Assembly: GCA_020431405.1 (NCBI GenBank)
Contig: JAGQIK010000162.1
Span: forward strand, 1-49,313
Source of the DNA: Myxococcales bacterium
Lineage (GTDB): Bacteria; Myxococcota_A; Polyangia; GCA-2747355
DNA length: 49,313 nucleotides
Direction: 5' to 3'
Shown: piece after piece, positions 20,817 through 41,376 of the stretch
Numbering within the stretch: the stretch's first letter is position 1
How the letters are laid out: each line of letters starts with the position of its first letter
Made by a program: the position numbers and the translations under genes
The notes under the pieces: generated by a model
Database searches by the model: none
Told to the model about the DNA's origin: nothing
Seen by the model: the letters and a program-made list of their open reading frames with translations, nothing else

Positions 20817-21694
20817 CGCGTGCCAGCCCTCTCACCCGCCGGCTGTTTCGCCTTGTCGAGCTCCGCGAGGGCTTCGGCGAGCTGATGTGCATCGGGAGCG
20901 CGCGAATGCCAGCCGATGGCGTTCTCCATGAACGAGACGCCTTTTCCCATTACCGTGCGCGCGATGATCGCCGTCGGCCGCTCACGCTCGCCACGCGCAG
21001 CGTCGAGCGCGCCACACAGCGCGGCGAAGTCGTGGCCGCTGACGTCGAGCGCGCGCCAGCCGAAGGCTTCGAGCTTGGCGGCGAGCGGCTCGACGTTCTT
21101 GATGTCGCGCACCGCGCCGTCGAGCTGCAGCCCGTTGGCGTCGATGATGGCGCAGAGGTTGGCGGTGCCGCGATGCCCGGCGCTCATCGCCGCCTCCCAG
21201 ATCTGTCCCTCCTGCAGCTCGCCATCGCCGAGCACGACGTAGACGCGCGGCTCTTCGCCGCCGTCGACGCCGCCGCGCAGCGCCAGCGCCATGCCGTGAC
21301 CGATGCTGAGGCCTTGCCCGAGCGATCCCGTGGACGCCTCGACGCCGGGACAGCGGCGCGAGTCAGGGTTTCCCTGCAGGATGCTCTCGAGCTGCCGCAT
21401 CTGGCGCAGCTCGGCGCGCGTGACATAGCCCGCCTGGTGCAGCGCGACGTAGAGCGCCGCCGAGGCGTGCCCTTTGCTGAGCACCATGCGGTCGCGCTGC
21501 GGCCACTCCGCGTTGTAGGGCGTGTGGTGCATCTCGCGAAAGTACAGACAGGTCAGGATGTCGATGCACGACATCGCGCTGCCCGTGTGACCGCTGCGCG
21601 CGTGGTGGATCGTGCGCAGCAGCAGCACGCGCAGCCCGCGTGCGATCTCGGCAAGCTCTTGGGGTGCGACCTCGTGGGCCGGGCCTCGGGTCAT
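20813..21694 (-). CDS. Transketolase, N-terminal subunit
   Basis: A 293-residue thiamine-diphosphate-binding half of transketolase. Seen: HHARSGHTGSAMSCIDILT near residue 28, LSKGHASAALYVAL, GSLGQGLSIGHGMAL and the cofactor motif GDGELQEGQIWEAA ending at the N of IIDANGLQ. Partner of the subunit encoded immediately downstream. Its ATG overlaps the TGA of the upstream Ser/Thr kinase gene by 4 nt, an unusual coupling of a transmembrane kinase to a central-carbon enzyme. Confidence 0.92.
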   Translation of the reverse strand: MTRGPAHEVAPQELAEIARGLRVLLLRTIHHARSGHTGSAMSCIDILTCLYFREMHHTPYNAEWPQRDRMVLSKGHASAALYVALHQAGYVTRAELRQMRQLESILQGNPDSRRCPGVEASTGSLGQGLSIGHGMALALRGGVDGGEEPRVYVVLGDGELQEGQIWEAAMSAGHRGTANLCAIIDANGLQLDGAVRDIKNVEPLAAKLEAFGWRALDVSGHDFAALCGALDAARGERERPTAIIARTVMGKGVSFMENAIGWHSRAPDAHQLAEALAELDKAKQPAGERAGTR

Positions 21695-24600
21695 TTCTTC
21701 TTGAAGGGATCGAGGATGTCTTCGTTGCCGCCGCCCTTCTTGGGACGGCGTGGCGCGGCGGACTTGCCGCCTTTCCTGCGCGGCCGGCGGCCGGCGTTGC
21801 CCTTCTTGAGCTTGATCGTTTTGGCCGTCACGTCGTGGCGGATGGTGACGCGCCGGGTCTTGTAGCCCTTGAGATAGACCTCGATGCGCCCGTCGCCGAG
21901 CTTCTTGCGAGAAAGCGACATCGGCGTCTTGCCCAGCTCCTCGCCCGTCTCGGCGCGAAACACCATCGCACCGCTGGGTGTGCTGGTGATGCGCACGGCG
22001 TCTTTGTCTTCCACCGCGCTGCCGGCAGCCGTGCCCTTGGCGGCGCTGCCCTGGGCGCTGCCGGCCTTGCCGCTGCCCTTGACCGCGCCCGCCGCGCTGC
22101 CCGTGCCGCTGCCGCCGACGCCGCTGCCGTCGTCGTCGCCGTCACCCGCGTTGTAGAAGACGCCGAAGTAGACGCCGATGCCGCCGCCGACGAGCAGCAA
22201 AAAGATGACGAGCCCGATCAGCGGCGCCTTGCTGCGCGGGCGGCGTCCCGGCGGCATCATGCGCTGGTCGCCGATCAGCGTGCGGCCCTCCTCCTTGAAG
22301 TAGGGATGAGTGCCGGGACGCTGCTCTTCCTTGTTGGTCTGTTGGTGCGACCAATCGCCGGTCTTCTTCTTTTTCTCGCCGCCCTCCGCCGACACTTCGC
22401 CTTCGGCTTGGCCATCGGCGCCGGTCGGCCCGCGCTCTTGCTGCGGCTGCGCTTGCGTCATCGCCGTGCCGTGCGGATCGCGCCCCAAGATCACGGGCTC
22501 GCGCGACGCCACCGGCTGTATCGGGGCGGGCTGCTGCTGATGGTCGCCGCCGCCGAATGGATGTCCCGGGCCCTGGTCGTCGGGCGGCTGCCATTGCGGC
22601 TGCCCCATCCGTGGCTGCCCGATCTGCGGCTGCACGACCTGCGGCCGCACGACCTGCGGCTGAACGGCCTGTGGCTGAACGGCCTGCGGTTGCGCCACGT
22701 GTGGCTGTACAACCTGCGGCTGCTGCTGCATCACGGCGTGCGGGGGGGCCGCGTGGCCGGGTTGCTGCAACACCGGCAGGGGCTGGTTTGGCAGTGGCTG
22801 GTTGGGCAGTGGCTGGTTGGGCAGTGGCTGGCTCGGGCCGAGCGTCTTCGCCGGTCCACTCGGCAGCGGTTGGCTCGGGCCGGTGGACATCGGCCGCCTC
22901 TGGCCGGTCGACTGCGCCTGTCGCGGGCGCGCCATGTTCGCGTATGCGTGCGCTGGGTCGGGTACCGCCGTGGGTCCCGCCTTCAACACGCCCGTCTGCT
23001 CGCTGCTGTCGCCACGCAGCAGCGAGTCGATCATCGTCGGCCGGTTCGAGTCGGCCGGCTCGTGATCCTCGGCGGATGCGATCAGCGTCTTGGCTTGCGG
23101 CGTCACCGCCTGGCGTATGTCGTCGAGCGAGGGGGCCGTGTCGGGATCGGGGCCGATGGTCGGCGAATCGGAGGTGACCGGTCGAGCCTGGCGTGGGCCC
23201 GTGCGCGGAAAGGACCCGCTGTCGGGCGGCCCCGGCTGCGAGCCGCGCCCTACGGCCACGTTGGCGGGGTTCGACGGCGCGCGGCGCTGGGCGTCGGGCG
23301 AAGCCGTCGGCGTCGCCGACGTCACCAGGTCGCTGGTCTCGCGCTTCTTGAGTGGCTTTCCCACCGGACGGCTGATCGCCGCGTGCGCCCCGGTCGGCGG
23401 CTTGGAGCGGCGCCCCAGCGTGATCGGTCCCACCGACGATGCCTGCGGTTTTGCCGGCGCCGCGGGGTTCTGATAGTTCATGTCGCTGGCGTTGAGCTCG
23501 CCGAACATCACCGTCTTGCGCTCGCCGCTGGGACGGTCGCCGCTGCTGCTCGGCGTCGCCTTGGGTGTCGCCTTGATCGGGCTGCTCGGCGGCGGCTTGC
23601 GATCAGGGGGCCTGCGATCTGGGATCTCGATGCGCGTCGGCCGCTCTTCGCTGTCGTCCGGCGGCGGCTGCGGCAGCGGCGCCGAGAACGAGCCGCGCGC
23701 CGACGAAGGCCGCTCGTGGTCCTTGGCCGGCCGCGTCAGGCGCTGATCCTCGTGCGAAAGGGCAGCCTCGAGGTCGCGCGTGAGGTCGTCGGCGGGCGTG
23801 ATGTCGAGCATGTGCTGCAGCAGGCTGTGGCCGGCCTGTTGTGCGCGTTGCCACGCCGTCATCTCGTCGGCGAACAGCTCGTGCATGTAGCGCGAGAGCG
23901 CGATGTCCGAGAGCGGCACGCCGAGATCGACGGCGAACTGCTCGAGGTCGGCCTGCATCGCGCGCGCGGTGGGGTAGCGATGGTCGGGGTCGCGCGCCAG
24001 CGCCTTCATCAGCACGTGCTCGAGCTGCTTGGGGTAGTCCGGCCGCATCGAGCTCGGCAGCCGCACCTGGCCCTTGGAGATCTGCTCGTAGATCTGGATG
24101 TCGCGCTTGCCTTCGAAGAGGTGTCGCCCGATGGTCGCCTCCCACAGCGACGTGCCGAGCGTGAAGATGTCGCAGCGGTGGTCGACCTGATTGCCGAGCA
24201 CCTGCTCGGGCGACAGATAGCGCACCTTGCCTTTGATCAGGCCGGGCTGCGTGAGGCTGATGCGGTTGGCGGCCTTGGCGATGCCGAAGTCGACGAGCTT
24301 CACGTTGCCGTCGTAGGTCAACATGATGTTGCTCGGGCTGAGGTCGCGATGAATGATGCCGAGCTTCTGGCCGTCGAGCGTGCGCACGTTGTGCGCGTAT
24401 TCGAGCGCCGAGCAAACCTTGGCGCCGACCATCGCCGCTACCGCCACCGGCACCGGCTCCTTGCGGCGCTTGAGGCTCTGGCGCACCGAGGCACGCAGGT
24501 CCTGCCCGTGCAGAAACTCCATCGCCAGGTAGAGGTTGCCGCTGACCTCGCCGACCTCGTAGACCTGCCCGATGCCCGGGTGGTTGAGCATCGCGGCGAT

Positions 24601-24786
24601 GCGCACCTCGTCCTGGAACATCGTGACGAACGACTCGTCCTCGGCGAAGCGGCTCGCCACCAGCTTGATGACGACCATGCGCTGCACGTTGGCCACGCCC
24701 GACGAGCGCGCCAGATACAGCTCCGCCATTCCGCCGCGAGCGAGGCGGCGAAGCAGCGTGTATTTGCCGAAGGCGATCTGCTTCAC
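21691..24786 (-). CDS. Transmembrane Ser/Thr protein kinase with Pro/Gln-rich linker and PEGA-like domain
   Basis: A 1031-residue Hanks-type kinase. Catalytic domain at residues 8-280: Gly-loop LARGGMAELYLA, K41, E60, HRDLSPSN (H146, D148, N153), DFG with D167, and SPE at 192-194. All key residues are present, so it is probably active. A long linker (about 340-850) is rich in Pro, Gln and Ser, with repeats such as PLPNQ and AVQPQ. One transmembrane helix lies at about 853-875. The C-terminal external part holds a Gly/Ser/Ala linker and a PEGA-like domain from about residue 930 (VRITSTPSGAMVF). GTG start at 24786 with a TATACT hexamer 11 nt upstream. It is followed without gap by the transketolase genes. 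Confidence 0.92.
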   Translation of the reverse strand: MKQIAFGKYTLLRRLARGGMAELYLARSSGVANVQRMVVIKLVASRFAEDESFVTMFQDEVRIAAMLNHPGIGQVYEVGEVSGNLYLAMEFLHGQDLRASVRQSLKRRKEPVPVAVAAMVGAKVCSALEYAHNVRTLDGQKLGIIHRDLSPSNIMLTYDGNVKLVDFGIAKAANRISLTQPGLIKGKVRYLSPEQVLGNQVDHRCDIFTLGTSLWEATIGRHLFEGKRDIQIYEQISKGQVRLPSSMRPDYPKQLEHVLMKALARDPDHRYPTARAMQADLEQFAVDLGVPLSDIALSRYMHELFADEMTAWQRAQQAGHSLLQHMLDITPADDLTRDLEAALSHEDQRLTRPAKDHERPSSARGSFSAPLPQPPPDDSEERPTRIEIPDRRPPDRKPPPSSPIKATPKATPSSSGDRPSGERKTVMFGELNASDMNYQNPAAPAKPQASSVGPITLGRRSKPPTGAHAAISRPVGKPLKKRETSDLVTSATPTASPDAQRRAPSNPANVAVGRGSQPGPPDSGSFPRTGPRQARPVTSDSPTIGPDPDTAPSLDDIRQAVTPQAKTLIASAEDHEPADSNRPTMIDSLLRGDSSEQTGVLKAGPTAVPDPAHAYANMARPRQAQSTGQRRPMSTGPSQPLPSGPAKTLGPSQPLPNQPLPNQPLPNQPLPVLQQPGHAAPPHAVMQQQPQVVQPHVAQPQAVQPQAVQPQVVRPQVVQPQIGQPRMGQPQWQPPDDQGPGHPFGGGDHQQQPAPIQPVASREPVILGRDPHGTAMTQAQPQQERGPTGADGQAEGEVSAEGGEKKKKTGDWSHQQTNKEEQRPGTHPYFKEEGRTLIGDQRMMPPGRRPRSKAPLIGLVIFLLLVGGGIGVYFGVFYNAGDGDDDGSGVGGSGTGSAAGAVKGSGKAGSAQGSAAKGTAAGSAVEDKDAVRITSTPSGAMVFRAETGEELGKTPMSLSRKKLGDGRIEVYLKGYKTRRVTIRHDVTAKTIKLKKGNAGRRPRRKGGKSAAPRRPKKGGGNEDILDPFKKK

Positions 24787-25577: not shown

Positions 25578-27248
25578 CTACGAGTGTTTCGGCCGGCTCA
25601 CGCTGTCGAACGGCTGCGTCTCGTGGGTCAGCCGGAACGTGACGCCGGCAACCTCGAAGCTGTCGCCGACAGTCAGCCGCACCGGCGACGAAGCGGCGCG
25701 TCCCTTGAACTGGATCTTCACGCGCCCGTTGTTGGGCTCGAGCCAGTAGCCGTCGTTCTTGCGCTTGATGTGGCCCGAGACGCCCTGCAGGCGCACCGGA
25801 CCGATCTGGATGCGGTACGTCAGCTCGGCGTCCTCGGCGAGCGACTGCTCCATCGTCTCGCCGCCGTTGCTGATGATCAGCTTCGGCACCGGCATCTCGG
25901 CGCGCGGCTGCGGCGACTTGCGCCCGCCGCCCGGCGGCAGGAACGTCAGCGACGCGCTGCCGATGCCGATGCGGTCGTGTGGCTTGAGCATCTGCGGGCT
26001 CGTCACGCGCACGTCGTTGACGAACGTGCCGTTGGAGCTGCCCAGATCTTCGAGGAAGAAGCCGGCGCCCTGCTTGAGGATGCGCGCGTGCTGGCGCGAG
26101 ACGCGCGCGTCGGCGATGGCGAGCTGTCCGGCGCGCCCGATGATCAGCTCGTCGCCGAGCTCGATCAGCTTTTCGCCCTGGTCGGTCTTGACCAGCAGGC
26201 GCGCTACCGACGAGTCCTCGATCTCGAAGATCAGGCTGTTGCGGTCGGGGATCTGCTCGAGGTCGTCACGCGAGAGGTGATCTTCGACCTCGCCCTCCAC
26301 CGGTTTGGCCGGCTCTTTGGCGATCACGCGCTCGACCAGCGCCGACAGGTGCGAGCCGCTGTAGTCGGGCGCGGTGGCCGAGAGGAACTTGGTCAGATCG
26401 ACCTGCAGCTCGTGTGCGGTCTGGTAGCGCTCCTCCGCTTTGGCGTGAAGCGCCTTTGCCACGATGGTGTCGAGCTGCGGTGGGATCTCGGGGCGCACGG
26501 TCGATGGCGCCTTGATGTCGGCTTTGCGCACGGCGGCCACCAGCTCGCCGACGTTGTTGCCGTTGTAGACCATCTGGCTGGTCAACATCTCCCACATCAC
26601 GATGCCGGTGGCGAAGATGTCGGTGCGCCGGTCGGCCTTCTGCCCCATGGCCTGCTCGGGGGCCATGTAGTTGACCTTGCCCTTGATCACGCCGGCCTGC
26701 GTCTTGGTGCTCATGCCGGCGGCCTTGGCGATGCCGAAGTCCACCACCTTCACCTCGCCGTTGCGCGAGACGAGGATGTTCTGCGGCGAGATGTCGCGAT
26801 GCACGATGTTGAGCGGCTCGCCCTGCTTGTTCTTGCGGCTGTGGGCGTAGTGCAGGCCGCTGCAGATCTGCCGGCCGATGTAGGCCACCGCCTCGATGGG
26901 CAGCCGCTCGCCGAGGGCGTGCAGCCCGTTGACGAGCTCGAGCACGTCCATCCCGTCGACGAACTCCATCGAGATGTAGTAGATGCCCTCGACCTGACCG
27001 AGGTCGAAGACCTGGCAGATGTTGACGTGCGAGAGGCCGACCGTGATCTTGGCCTCGTCGATGAGCATCTGGATGAAGCGCTCTTCGGTGGCGTACTCCG
27101 GGTTGATGACCTTCAGCGCGAGGTACTTCTCGAAGCCGGCCAGGCCCTCCGTCTTCGCCAGGTAGATCTGCGCCATGCCGCCGCCGCCGATGGGGCGGAC
27201 GATGTGGTAGTTGCCGAACTCGCTGCCGGCCGCGATCTGGTGTTGCAT
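25578..27248 (-). CDS. Ser/Thr protein kinase with FHA domain
   Basis: A 556-residue soluble Hanks-type kinase with no transmembrane helix. Kinase domain at 12-290: GGGGMAQIYLA loop, K46, E65, HRDISPQN (H150, D152, N157), D170 of DFG, and APE at 196-198. Residues about 360-430 form an FHA phosphothreonine-binding domain: IIGRAGQ (G371, R372), SRQHA (S384, H387) and SSNGTF (N406). The last ~110 residues look like another beta-sandwich (GHIKRKNDGYWLEPNN, VTFRL) that resembles a second, degraded FHA domain. Kinase-FHA fusions usually bind their own or a partner's phosphothreonine. The ATG lies 58 bp after the ABC-F stop. Confidence 0.93.
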   Translation of the reverse strand: MQHQIAAGSEFGNYHIVRPIGGGGMAQIYLAKTEGLAGFEKYLALKVINPEYATEERFIQMLIDEAKITVGLSHVNICQVFDLGQVEGIYYISMEFVDGMDVLELVNGLHALGERLPIEAVAYIGRQICSGLHYAHSRKNKQGEPLNIVHRDISPQNILVSRNGEVKVVDFGIAKAAGMSTKTQAGVIKGKVNYMAPEQAMGQKADRRTDIFATGIVMWEMLTSQMVYNGNNVGELVAAVRKADIKAPSTVRPEIPPQLDTIVAKALHAKAEERYQTAHELQVDLTKFLSATAPDYSGSHLSALVERVIAKEPAKPVEGEVEDHLSRDDLEQIPDRNSLIFEIEDSSVARLLVKTDQGEKLIELGDELIIGRAGQLAIADARVSRQHARILKQGAGFFLEDLGSSNGTFVNDVRVTSPQMLKPHDRIGIGSASLTFLPPGGGRKSPQPRAEMPVPKLIISNGGETMEQSLAEDAELTYRIQIGPVRLQGVSGHIKRKNDGYWLEPNNGRVKIQFKGRAASSPVRLTVGDSFEVAGVTFRLTHETQPFDSVSRPKHS

Positions 27249-37310: not shown

Positions 37311-39377
37311 ATGCTCGTTTGTCCCGTCTGCAACGCGCGCTACGAGGACGAAACCAAATTCTGTCCCAAGGACGGCTCCGCGCTGGTGGCCGATCAGGCC
37401 GTGCAGTCGCTCACCGGCCAGGTCATCGCCGGCCGCTACCGTCTGGTGAAGCTGTTGGGGCAGGGCGGCATGGGCGAGGTCTACGCCGCCGAGCACGTCC
37501 ACATCACCAAGAAGGTCGCGGTCAAGGTCCTGCACCCCGAGATCAGCTCCAACCCCGAGGCGCTGGCGCGCTTTCGTCAGGAGGCGCAGAGCGCATCGAG
37601 CATCGGCCACGAGAACATCGTCGCCATCGACGACTTCGGGCAGATGCAGGACGGCCGCTTCTATCTGTGCATGGAGTTTCTCGAGGGCGAGAGCCTCAGC
37701 GACGCGATGGCGGCGCCCGGCGGCATGGACCCCATCCGTGCACTCGACGTGATGATCCAGGTCTGCCACGGCCTGCACTCGGCGCACAGCAAGGGCATCG
37801 TCCATCGCGACATGAAGCCCGAGAACGTGTTCCTCACCAAGGACAACCGAGGGCAAGAGGTCGCCAAGATCCTCGACTTCGGTATCGCCAAGGTCTCGGG
37901 CACCGACGAGAACTCCAACCTGACCAAGACCGGCACCGTCTTCGGAACGCCGCACTACATGTCGCCCGAGCAGGCGCTCGGACAGAAGGTCGATCAGCGC
38001 GCCGACGTCTACTCGCTGGGCGTGATGCTGTTCGAGATCTTCACCGGCCAGGTGCCCTTCAAGGCCGAGTCCTTCATGGGCATCCTCTCGCAGCACATCA
38101 CGAAGCCACCGCCCTCGCCGAGCACGGTGACGCCTGGCCGTTCGATCCCCAAGGCGATCGAGGACGTGATCCTGCGCTCGATGGCCAAAGAGCCCGACGC
38201 GCGCTTCAACAACGTCGAAGAGATCGCCGCGGTGTTGCAGACGCTGCGCAACGAGACGGCCGGCGTCGGCCCCGTGGGCAGCATCCCGGCGCAGCCGCAG
38301 CCGCAGGGCGGCGCCTCGGGTATCGCGCCGACGATGATGGCCGGCGGCGGGCAGACGCCGATGCCGACGCCCGCGCCCAACATCCCAGGCACGCACAGCC
38401 CGCACGCCGGACTGACCGGGCCGCAGCAGCAGGGCATCCCGCAGACGATGATGTCGCAGCCGGGGCAGGTGCCGGTGATCGGCACGCCGCCCGGGCAGAT
38501 GAACAGCCAGAGCGCGGTGCCAGTGGTGCCGTCGCCGCCGCCGCAGCAGATGCGCGGCAAGGGCAAGAAGGGCGGCGGCAAGAGCCGCACCGGCCTGGTC
38601 ATCGGCCTGGTGGTGGGTCTCGTGCTGATCGGCGGCGGCGCTACCGCGGCGATCGTCTTTTGGGGCGACATCACCGGCAACAAGGGTGACGACCCCGGCA
38701 CGGGCGCCATCGCCAAGAACACCGGCTCTGGCGGCGGCTCGGGTGCCGCCACCAACATGAACGACCCCAACGCCGGCTCGGGTGGCAGCGCCAAGGGTAC
38801 GGCCGCCGCGGCGGGCACGGGCAGTGCTGCACCGCCGCCTGGAACGGCGACGGGCACGGGTGCCGCGGTGGCGTCCGGAACGGGAGAGAAGCCAGGTACC
38901 GGCGACCCCGCGGGTGGCACCGGCGCCGCGCCTGGCACCGGCGAGCCGCCTCCCGGGACCGGCGAGCCGCCGACCAAGATGGGCAAGGCGCCGCCGGACA
39001 ATCCGCCCGACAACCCGCCAGACAATCCGCCGCCCAAGACCAAGCAGCGGCCGACGAAGGTCGTCAACAACCCGCCGCCGAAGAACGTTCCGCCGGCGCA
39101 GCCGGAGTTCAAGTCGACCTATCGCGTGCGCGTCGTCACCAGCCCGCGCGGCGTGGCGATCCTGCAGGGTGGCGTGCGTGTCGGCCGCACGCCCCACACG
39201 TTCACCATGCGACGCGGCGCGTCCATGCGCGTGTTGCTCGCCAAGGGCGGCTGGCGCGATCGCCGCGTGACGATCCGCGCGCCGCGCACGGGGCTCAAGG
39301 ACAGCACCGTGCGCTTCAGCCTGCGCCGCGGCCGCAGCGGCAAGGCGCTGGGCATCCCCGGAAACGACCCATTCTAG
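37311..39377 (+). CDS. Transmembrane Ser/Thr kinase with N-terminal zinc ribbon and PEGA domain
   Basis: A 688-residue kinase. The N-terminus carries a zinc-ribbon-like knuckle C4-x2-C7...C18-PKDG, a type common before myxobacterial kinases. Kinase domain at 43-310: LLGQGGMGEVYAA, K72, E91, HRDMKPEN (H165, D167, N172), D189 of DFG, and SPE at 218-220. All catalytic residues are intact. A Pro/Gly/Gln-rich linker leads to one transmembrane helix (about 428-452). The external part is Gly/Thr/Pro-rich with GTGEPP repeats, then a PEGA domain from about residue 604 (YRVRVVTSPRGVAILQGG). Its own promoter lies at 37225-37253. It shares the direction of the PilZ-Hsp70 gene that follows. Confidence 0.92.
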   Translation: MLVCPVCNARYEDETKFCPKDGSALVADQAVQSLTGQVIAGRYRLVKLLGQGGMGEVYAAEHVHITKKVAVKVLHPEISSNPEALARFRQEAQSASSIGHENIVAIDDFGQMQDGRFYLCMEFLEGESLSDAMAAPGGMDPIRALDVMIQVCHGLHSAHSKGIVHRDMKPENVFLTKDNRGQEVAKILDFGIAKVSGTDENSNLTKTGTVFGTPHYMSPEQALGQKVDQRADVYSLGVMLFEIFTGQVPFKAESFMGILSQHITKPPPSPSTVTPGRSIPKAIEDVILRSMAKEPDARFNNVEEIAAVLQTLRNETAGVGPVGSIPAQPQPQGGASGIAPTMMAGGGQTPMPTPAPNIPGTHSPHAGLTGPQQQGIPQTMMSQPGQVPVIGTPPGQMNSQSAVPVVPSPPPQQMRGKGKKGGGKSRTGLVIGLVVGLVLIGGGATAAIVFWGDITGNKGDDPGTGAIAKNTGSGGGSGAATNMNDPNAGSGGSAKGTAAAAGTGSAAPPPGTATGTGAAVASGTGEKPGTGDPAGGTGAAPGTGEPPPGTGEPPTKMGKAPPDNPPDNPPDNPPPKTKQRPTKVVNNPPPKNVPPAQPEFKSTYRVRVVTSPRGVAILQGGVRVGRTPHTFTMRRGASMRVLLAKGGWRDRRVTIRAPRTGLKDSTVRFSLRRGRSGKALGIPGNDPF

Positions 39378-39495: not shown

Positions 39496-41376
39496 TTGAC
39501 CGACGAACGAGTCCAGCGCCGCCATCGACGCTACAGCGTCGCGCTCAACGTAGAGATATCTGCGCGCGACTGGGACGACGTCAAGGTCCTCAGCACGGTC
39601 AACGTCAGCCGCGGCGGCGTCTTCATCCGCAGCCACAGCACGGTGCCGGTCGGCTCCCTGCTGGCGATCAACGTGCGCTTGCCAGACGGCACAACGCTGA
39701 CGGCCAGCGGCGTGGTGGTGCACAGCATCCCGCACGAGGCGGCGCAGCAGGCCGGCAGCGCGGCGGGGTTTGGCGTGCGCTTCGACGAGCAGCACGCGCT
39801 CGATCTCGGCTTGCTCGAGGCCATCGCGGCGAGCCACTCGGGTGGACGCAGCGGCTCCTATCGCCTCGACGAGCTCTACACGAGCATGCCCACGCTGGTC
39901 AGCGTGCCGGGCACGACGGTGCAGCTTCAGACCAGCGCACACCAGCTGATCGAGCGCGACGATGACGGCGAGACGCGCGAGGCGAGCAGCGAGTCGCTCG
40001 TCGGGCGCGAGGACCCGATCAGCTACGAGGTCGAGATACCGGACGCACCGGTGGAAGACCTCGTCATCGCGCCCACGCGTACGCACCGCGCCCAGGACGA
40101 AGACGAGACCGAGATCCCGATCCACATCGACGACAGTGAGGCCACCGGGCCGCGCGCCGACGAGCTCGGCGCGCCACACCGGCCGCGCCGCCAAGTCATC
40201 GTGCCGGACGACGTGATCTTCGGCGTCGACTTCGGCACCAGCTTCAGCGGTATCGCCGTCGTCACGCGCCACGAGGTGGCGATGCTGCTCGACGAGGAAG
40301 GCAACTCCGTCTTTCCGTCGACGGTCTGCTACCTCGAGGATGGCAAGCCGCTGGTGGGCTGGGAGGCGCGCATCAAGACGGCGACACACCCGTCGACCAC
40401 CATCGCGTCGTGCAAGCGCCTGATGGGGCGCCGCTACGAGCACGCCTCGATCCAGCCGTTCCTCGCGCAGCTCGCGGCGCGCACGCACGCTGGCCCCAAC
40501 GGCCAGGTGATGGTCGATGTCTACGGCCAGGCGATCCCGGTGATCCAGATCGGGCGCGACATCTTCCGCTTCCTCGCCAACATCGGCACCGAGACGACCA
40601 GCGTGCCGGTCAAACGCATCGTCATCTCGGCGCCGGTGGAGTTCGACGACGTGCAGCGGCGCGCCATCCGGCGCTCGGCCGAGCTGGCCAACCTCGAGGT
40701 TGTCGACTGCATCGACGAGCCCGTGGCGGCGGCGATGGCCTACGGCCTCGGCCGCGACGATGGGCTCATCGCGGTCTACGACTTCGGCGGCGGCACCTTC
40801 GACTGCACGCTGCTCGAGATCAAGAAGGGCCGCTTCAAGGTGCGCGGGCGCGCCGGCGACGCCTGGCTCGGCGGCGACGACTTCGACGCTGCCATCGCCA
40901 ACCACGCCGCCGACCAGTTCTGGCGCCGCACCAAGGTCGATCTGCGCAACCGCCGCGTCGAATGGCGCCGCCTGCTGCTGCACGCCGAAGCGGCCAAACG
41001 CCGGCTCAGCGTGCAGCGCAGCTGCAAGCTGCACGTGCGAGCGATCGTGCTCTCGCTCACCGGCGCCATCGACCTCGAGATGGAGCTCACGCGCGACCTG
41101 ATCGACGAGCTCTGCCGCGACCTAGTCGACCGCACGCTGATGTCACTCGACGAGTGCCTCGAGGGCGCCGGCGTCACGCCGCAGCAGGTCGACCGCGTGG
41201 TGATGGTCGGCGGCGTGGCGCGCATGCCGCTCGTGCGCAAGCGCGTTCAGGAGTATTTCGAGCGCGAGGTGTCGCTGGTCGTCGACCCCGAGCACGCCGT
41301 GGTGCTCGGCAACGCGATTCACGCGCGCTTTATGTCGCTGCGCAAAGCGCCCGCGCCGGTGGTCGAGAGCGAGTAG
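39496..41376 (+). CDS. PilZ-Hsp70 fusion protein lacking a substrate-binding domain
   Basis: A 626-residue protein. Residues 8-110 form a PilZ c-di-GMP-binding domain with both ligand motifs: RxxxR (R8, R12) and NxSxxG (N36, S38, G41). A mostly acidic linker (about 115-240) follows. Residues 242-615 form an Hsp70/DnaK-type ATPase: DFGTSFSG at 245-252, [42 protein letters not shown] at 429-436 and [14 protein letters not shown]. It ends there, so the peptide-binding domain of DnaK is absent. TTG 39496 is the only start between an in-frame TGA at 39484-39486 and the PilZ motif. Inference: an ATPase switched by c-di-GMP. Residues about 190-220 contain [13 protein letters not shown], with no known domain. 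Confidence 0.9.

Follow-up and report, generated by a model that had tools for sequence, protein, structure and literature searches.

An open reading frame at positions 39496-41376 (+) of the 49,313-nucleotide stretch of Myxococcota DNA analysed here (the window) encodes a 626-amino acid protein in which an N-terminal PilZ domain is joined to an Hsp70 nucleotide-binding domain (NBD) with intact ATPase residues, but with neither a substrate-binding domain (SBD) nor the residues through which J proteins stimulate DnaK. We propose, with a probability of roughly 0.5, that this is a c-di-GMP-responsive, J- and peptide-independent ATPase derived from Hsp70, which would act as a nucleotide-gated switch or scaffold.

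Domain organization of the window protein

The gene begins with a TTG codon, a start backed by its relatives, whose own starts align with it. Its codon-position GC content (0.71/0.45/0.92) has the pattern of a real gene, with that of its neighbors being similar. The features of the gene and its product are as follows.

39496-41376, + strand: gene with TTG start for a 626-aa protein, PilZ - disordered linker - Hsp70 NBD (sequence, Pfam, alignment, codon-position GC)
39514-39819, + strand: PilZ domain, aa 7-108 (Pfam PF07238, E-value 8.7e-9, 36.1 bits, cut-off 22.5)
39517-39531, + strand: c-di-GMP motif 1, R8-R-H-R-R12, RxxxR (sequence)
39601-39618, + strand: c-di-GMP motif 2, N36-V-S38-R-G-G41, [DN]xSxxG (sequence)
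39838-40197, + strand: low-complexity linker, predicted to be disordered, aa 115-234, ~120 aa, poorly conserved (pLDDT <50; alignment)
40216-41334, + strand: Hsp70 NBD, aa 241-613 (Pfam PF00012, E-value 2e-96; Foldseek)
40228-40251, + strand: phosphate-1 loop DFGTSFSG, aa 245-252 (sequence; equivalents of DnaK D8, G10 and T11 in 23/23)
40414-40416, + strand: catalytic lysine K307, equivalent to DnaK K70 (conserved 23/23)
40705-40725, + strand: J-domain contact strip D404-C-I-D407-E408-P-V410 (residue mapping to DnaK)
40777-40803, + strand: phosphate-2 motif YDFGGGTFD, aa 428-436, DnaK D194, T199 and D201 (conserved 23/23)
41335-41373, + strand: tail of 13 residues where DnaK has its interdomain linker and SBD (sequence, domain mapping, tblastn)

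The PilZ domain passes its curated Pfam cut-off, while a match to TIGR02266 (aa 33-101) lies below the cut-off of that model. Both c-di-GMP contacts, R8-x3-R12 and N36-x-S38-x2-G41, are located where the initial annotation had put them, and the two actin-like motifs which it had read in the Hsp70 part are likewise present, DFGGGTFD lying inside the longer phosphate-2 motif.

Membership of the Hsp70 superfamily is borne out by the NBD fold and the catalytic residues, as seen with Pfam, residue mapping, AlphaFold and Foldseek. The NBD was modelled with a pLDDT mostly above 90, as against less than 50 for residues 105-234 and 619-626, and in Foldseek the model had its top PDB matches with Hsp70 NBDs (TM 0.94 to the target). 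The PilZ part was poorly predicted (pLDDT ~25-70), because the alignment depth in this region is just two sequences. An MreB/FtsA-like actin identity was also considered for the NBD and rejected, as such matches are weak (MreB E-value 7e-14 versus HSP70 E-value 2e-96).

The window protein resembles DnaK (PF00012, TIGR02350) in the fold and catalytic residues of its NBD, with ~35% identity, but it is not a canonical DnaK. The Pfam HSP70 match covers only profile positions 1-375 of 599, and the stop codon follows 13 residues after the NBD, with neither interdomain linker nor SBD, which agrees with the earlier observation that the chain ends where the SBD of DnaK would start. The NCBIfam models for DnaK and HscA align to the Hsp70 segment far under their cut-offs, the DnaK score being 299 bits versus an equivalog cut-off of 823. 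In DnaK, the positions which respond to DnaJ are R151, R167, N170 and T173 (PMC4022485). R167, N170 and T173 are replaced in the window protein by D, D and V respectively, although the catalytic E171 among them is retained as E408. R151 is also retained here, but is found in only 6 of the 23 SBD-less NBDs described below.

A clade of SBD-less Hsp70 NBDs in Myxococcota

The tree contains 23 SBD-less Hsp70 NBDs, that of the window included, whose chains end 4-21 residues past the domain. A PilZ domain is present in 13 of these proteins, four of which have the order J domain - PilZ - NBD. With IQ-TREE all 23 fall in a single Myxococcota clade of 27 rows (support 100/100), the other four rows being proteins which bear an SBD, and a single origin of SBD loss was not rejected by the AU test (p 0.36). 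Residues were counted by mapping to E. coli DnaK numbering. D8, G10, T11, K70, E171, D194, G196, T199 and D201 are present in all 23 SBD-less NBDs, while R167 is kept in none of them, N170 in one and T173 in four; each of these three J contacts is present in 28/28 SBD-bearing relatives outside the clade. R167 is also missing from the four proteins of the clade that bear an SBD, so the loss of J contacts probably preceded that of the SBD and the two losses are not independent observations. Judged by these sequences, the clade is likely to have lost its J-docking residues first and its SBD afterwards, probably once.

The initial annotation had raised the possibility that the fusion is unique to one genome. 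This is answered by full-length co-linear relatives in two other genomes of the order and by a paralog in the window's own genome (L095, 680 aa). The order-level comparison comprised four genomes, namely the window genome, G001, G002 and G003. Two copies occur in G001 (605 and 621 aa), one of them belonging to the Myxococcota MAG AB_03_Bin_128 (L112), and one in G003 (618 aa), while no co-linear PilZ-NBD relative was found in G002, a genome that is 67% complete. When 379 genomes from the phylum and 318 from the class were searched, the co-linear form was confined to the window's order, with related Hsp70 NBDs being more widely spread.

A number of other arrangements were encountered among these proteins. 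The single-chain J domain - PilZ - Hsp70 NBD proteins (L090:3694-5904, L235:3285-5954, L236:1884-4037, L239:2495-4651) were found in four genomes, all from a single other family within the class, and none has the SBD or R167. A second type of PilZ-NBD gene (L096:2139-6104 and L099:642-4129) adjoins a divergent DUF429 gene in a neighborhood shared by two genomes. Stand-alone SBD-less NBD genes (L091:2061-5965 and the homologous L092, L093, L230-L232, L234 and L237) have a conserved neighborhood with TldD/PmbA-like genes, of which two were seen, and an upstream gene of unknown family. No stand-alone PilZ gene was found adjoining the PilZ-less NBD-only genes at the loci examined. The Hsp70s of L097, L006, L086 and L100, which lie within the clade of the SBD-less proteins, possess an SBD of ~126-129 aa and have lost R167 and N170. 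The nearest SBD-bearing sister group of Hsp70s has a conserved locus (L087:3028-8625, also L083, L085 and L098; four genomes of the order) with genes for a Rec-GGDEF protein, the short-SBD Hsp70, a DnaJ protein and a Ser/Thr kinase.

Comparison with known PilZ-DnaK and SBD-less Hsp70 proteins

No characterized example of a chaperone-like ATPase under second-messenger control had been known to the initial annotation, a statement contradicted by CsdK1 (Mxan_3778) and CsdK2 (Mxan_6605), PilZ-DnaK chaperones of Myxococcus xanthus reported in 2023 (PMC10313047). These contain an NBD, linker and SBD and allow the PilZ protein CdbS to accumulate under heat stress; CdbS is bound by the DnaK part of CsdK2 and not by its PilZ domain, mutation of the PilZ motif being without effect (PMC10313047). 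In an earlier survey of the 24 M. xanthus PilZ proteins, four were found to have DnaK or DnaJ domains (PMC8316039). Fusions of a sensor with Hsp70 are thus already known, and the novelty is confined to the form without an SBD, of which no description was found in the open-access literature searched.

Like CsdK1 and CsdK2, the window protein comes from Myxococcota and has PilZ at its N-terminus with an Hsp70 NBD after it, the c-di-GMP motif also being kept in CsdK2. CsdK1 and CsdK2 possess the linker and SBD and bind a client, while the window protein lacks both linker and SBD and has lost the J contacts. For the tree, a CsdK-like PilZ-HSP70 with an SBD from an Archangium MAG (L249:3139-5805, 889 aa, R/N/T J contacts present by sequence) was used as a stand-in, with CsdK1 and CsdK2 themselves being compared by description. 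The NBD of L249 falls outside the 27-row clade with IQ-TREE, and its monophyly with the group of the window protein was rejected (AU test, p 9.8e-5). The window protein is therefore not a CsdK ortholog, as far as this stand-in shows, and the fusion of PilZ with Hsp70 had two or more separate origins in Myxococcota.

These results bear on the possibility that the window protein is a chaperone of the CsdK type, which would stabilize particular clients such as stand-alone PilZ proteins, with c-di-GMP being secondary, either via its own NBD or with substrate binding supplied by another Hsp70 or a J protein. Such a role is suggested by the action of CsdK1 and CsdK2 on CdbS, by the J domain lying within the same chain in four relatives and by the Rec-GGDEF, DnaJ and Ser/Thr kinase genes at the sister Hsp70 locus. 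With the SBD missing, the J-contact residues lost and a shared origin of the fusion with that of the CsdK-like protein rejected, we consider it rather improbable.

The animal ER protein Hspa13/STCH is, like the window protein, an NBD-only Hsp70; its ATPase is active and is not stimulated by peptide (PMC9691929). It is eukaryotic, has no sensor domain and, unlike the window protein, keeps most of the J-interacting sites of its NBD (PMC9691929). The resemblance between the two is likely to be convergent. PilZ domains joined to an enzymatic domain are also known in myxobacteria from PixB and Pkn1 (PMC8316039), but the output of these is an acetyltransferase or kinase, while in the window protein the output domain is the Hsp70 ATPase.

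Conservation of the c-di-GMP motifs

RxxxR is intact in 12 of the 13 PilZ-NBD fusions and [DN]xSxxG in 9, and both are intact in 9/13. The window copy is one of these nine, as are three of the four proteins co-linear with it. The four exceptions are the own-genome paralog L095, where RxxxR is absent and the second motif reads GxSxxG, and three of the four J-PilZ-NBD proteins. Conservation of these residues in relatives, on which the earlier interpretation depended, is thus found in most of the co-linear relatives but not in the paralog. The window genome has a c-di-GMP network, with 56 PilZ and 22 GGDEF hits. Control by c-di-GMP, as proposed initially, is plausible from the sequences, but does not extend uniformly across the family.

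Alternatively, the PilZ domain may be a c-di-GMP-independent module for protein interaction or localization, and the NBD a platform for ATP-dependent assembly. The degenerate motifs in 4/13 fusions are in keeping with this and, together with the long variable linker, would allow PilZ to act as an interaction module. Against it, neither motif is degenerate in the window copy or in most of its closest relatives, and for the window protein itself we regard this explanation as rather improbable.

The upstream kinase gene

The gene preceding that of the PilZ-NBD protein was previously suggested to be part of the same circuit.

37311-39377, + strand: Ser/Thr kinase with zinc ribbon, kinase and weak PEGA domains (Pfam; 118 bp gap upstream of the PilZ-NBD gene)

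In such a two-part circuit, phosphorylation by the kinase would target the PilZ-NBD protein or the disordered linker within it. The short gap and shared strand could point in this direction, as could the Ser/Thr kinase gene two genes upstream of the paralog L095 and the kinases flanking the sister SBD-bearing Hsp70 in several genomes. The synteny is nevertheless not conserved in the nearest relatives, among which only L095 has a Ser/Thr kinase nearby; the neighbors are a glycosyltransferase and a WD40-like protein at L081, SulP (by sequence) and MFS proteins at L082, and a histidine kinase at L084. Adjacency is also weak evidence in a genome with at least 151 kinase domains, three of them in the 49-kb window, where neighbors of this kind are ordinarily expected by chance. 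The kinase is probably not a functional partner, and the circuit seems very improbable. Two further Ser/Thr kinase-like ORFs were recognized by sequence in the window at 21694-24786 and 25581-27248, both on the minus strand.

Finally, the missing SBD taken alone could hint at an artefact of assembly or at a DnaK gene that is truncated or decaying. This explanation is refuted by an end point common to 23 proteins from many genomes, by coding-type GC3, by intact catalytic residues and by the lack of any SBD remnant downstream, and retains almost no probability. In tblastn searches with six different SBDs, no match was obtained in any frame, either in the window or at the remaining loci without an SBD, which shows that no frameshift underlies the short C-terminus.

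Proposed function

With both the J-stimulation residues and the SBD gone, a canonical chaperone cycle is unlikely, and the description 'chaperone-like' given in the initial annotation does not fit. The preferred explanation, that of a c-di-GMP-responsive switch or scaffold, is favored by the domain architecture, the ATPase residues (23/23), the occurrence of both PilZ motifs in 9/13 fusions and the abundance of PilZ and GGDEF domains in the genome, with Hspa13/STCH as precedent for an active SBD-less Hsp70 (PMC9691929). The PilZ domain would serve as a c-di-GMP sensor, tethered through the disordered linker to an ATPase whose activity would require neither bound peptide nor canonical stimulation by J proteins. 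Binding of c-di-GMP may bias the ATP/ADP state of the NBD, or the nucleotide state may gate the binding of a partner, the outcome being a nucleotide-gated switch or scaffold and not a client-folding chaperone. Binding, hydrolysis and the coupling of the two are predicted here from sequence.

The long, poorly conserved linker argues against tight intramolecular coupling. In addition, as CsdK2 binds its client via its DnaK part and tolerates mutation of its PilZ motif, a PilZ domain need not control the ATPase to which it is joined. The four J-PilZ-NBD fusions suggest that in some members the connection to a J domain persists in cis, and they would allow for a remnant of chaperone function. Extended to the whole group, the interpretation would be that these are signalling ATPases of Myxococcota derived from Hsp70, which have left the chaperone role, kept the ATPase and come under c-di-GMP control via PilZ, some with a J domain in cis; this wider view is put forward tentatively, at somewhat less than even odds.

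Studies of Hsp70 NBDs have usually treated J proteins and peptide as what drives them. The clade described here drops both and keeps every catalytic residue, and its frequent association with a c-di-GMP sensor domain would make it a natural test of whether a small-molecule signal can run an Hsp70 ATPase. If the proposal is true, an Hsp70 NBD has been turned into a molecular switch gated by a second messenger. With PilZ having joined Hsp70 on at least two occasions in Myxococcota, links between c-di-GMP and chaperones may extend beyond the case of CsdK and CdbS.
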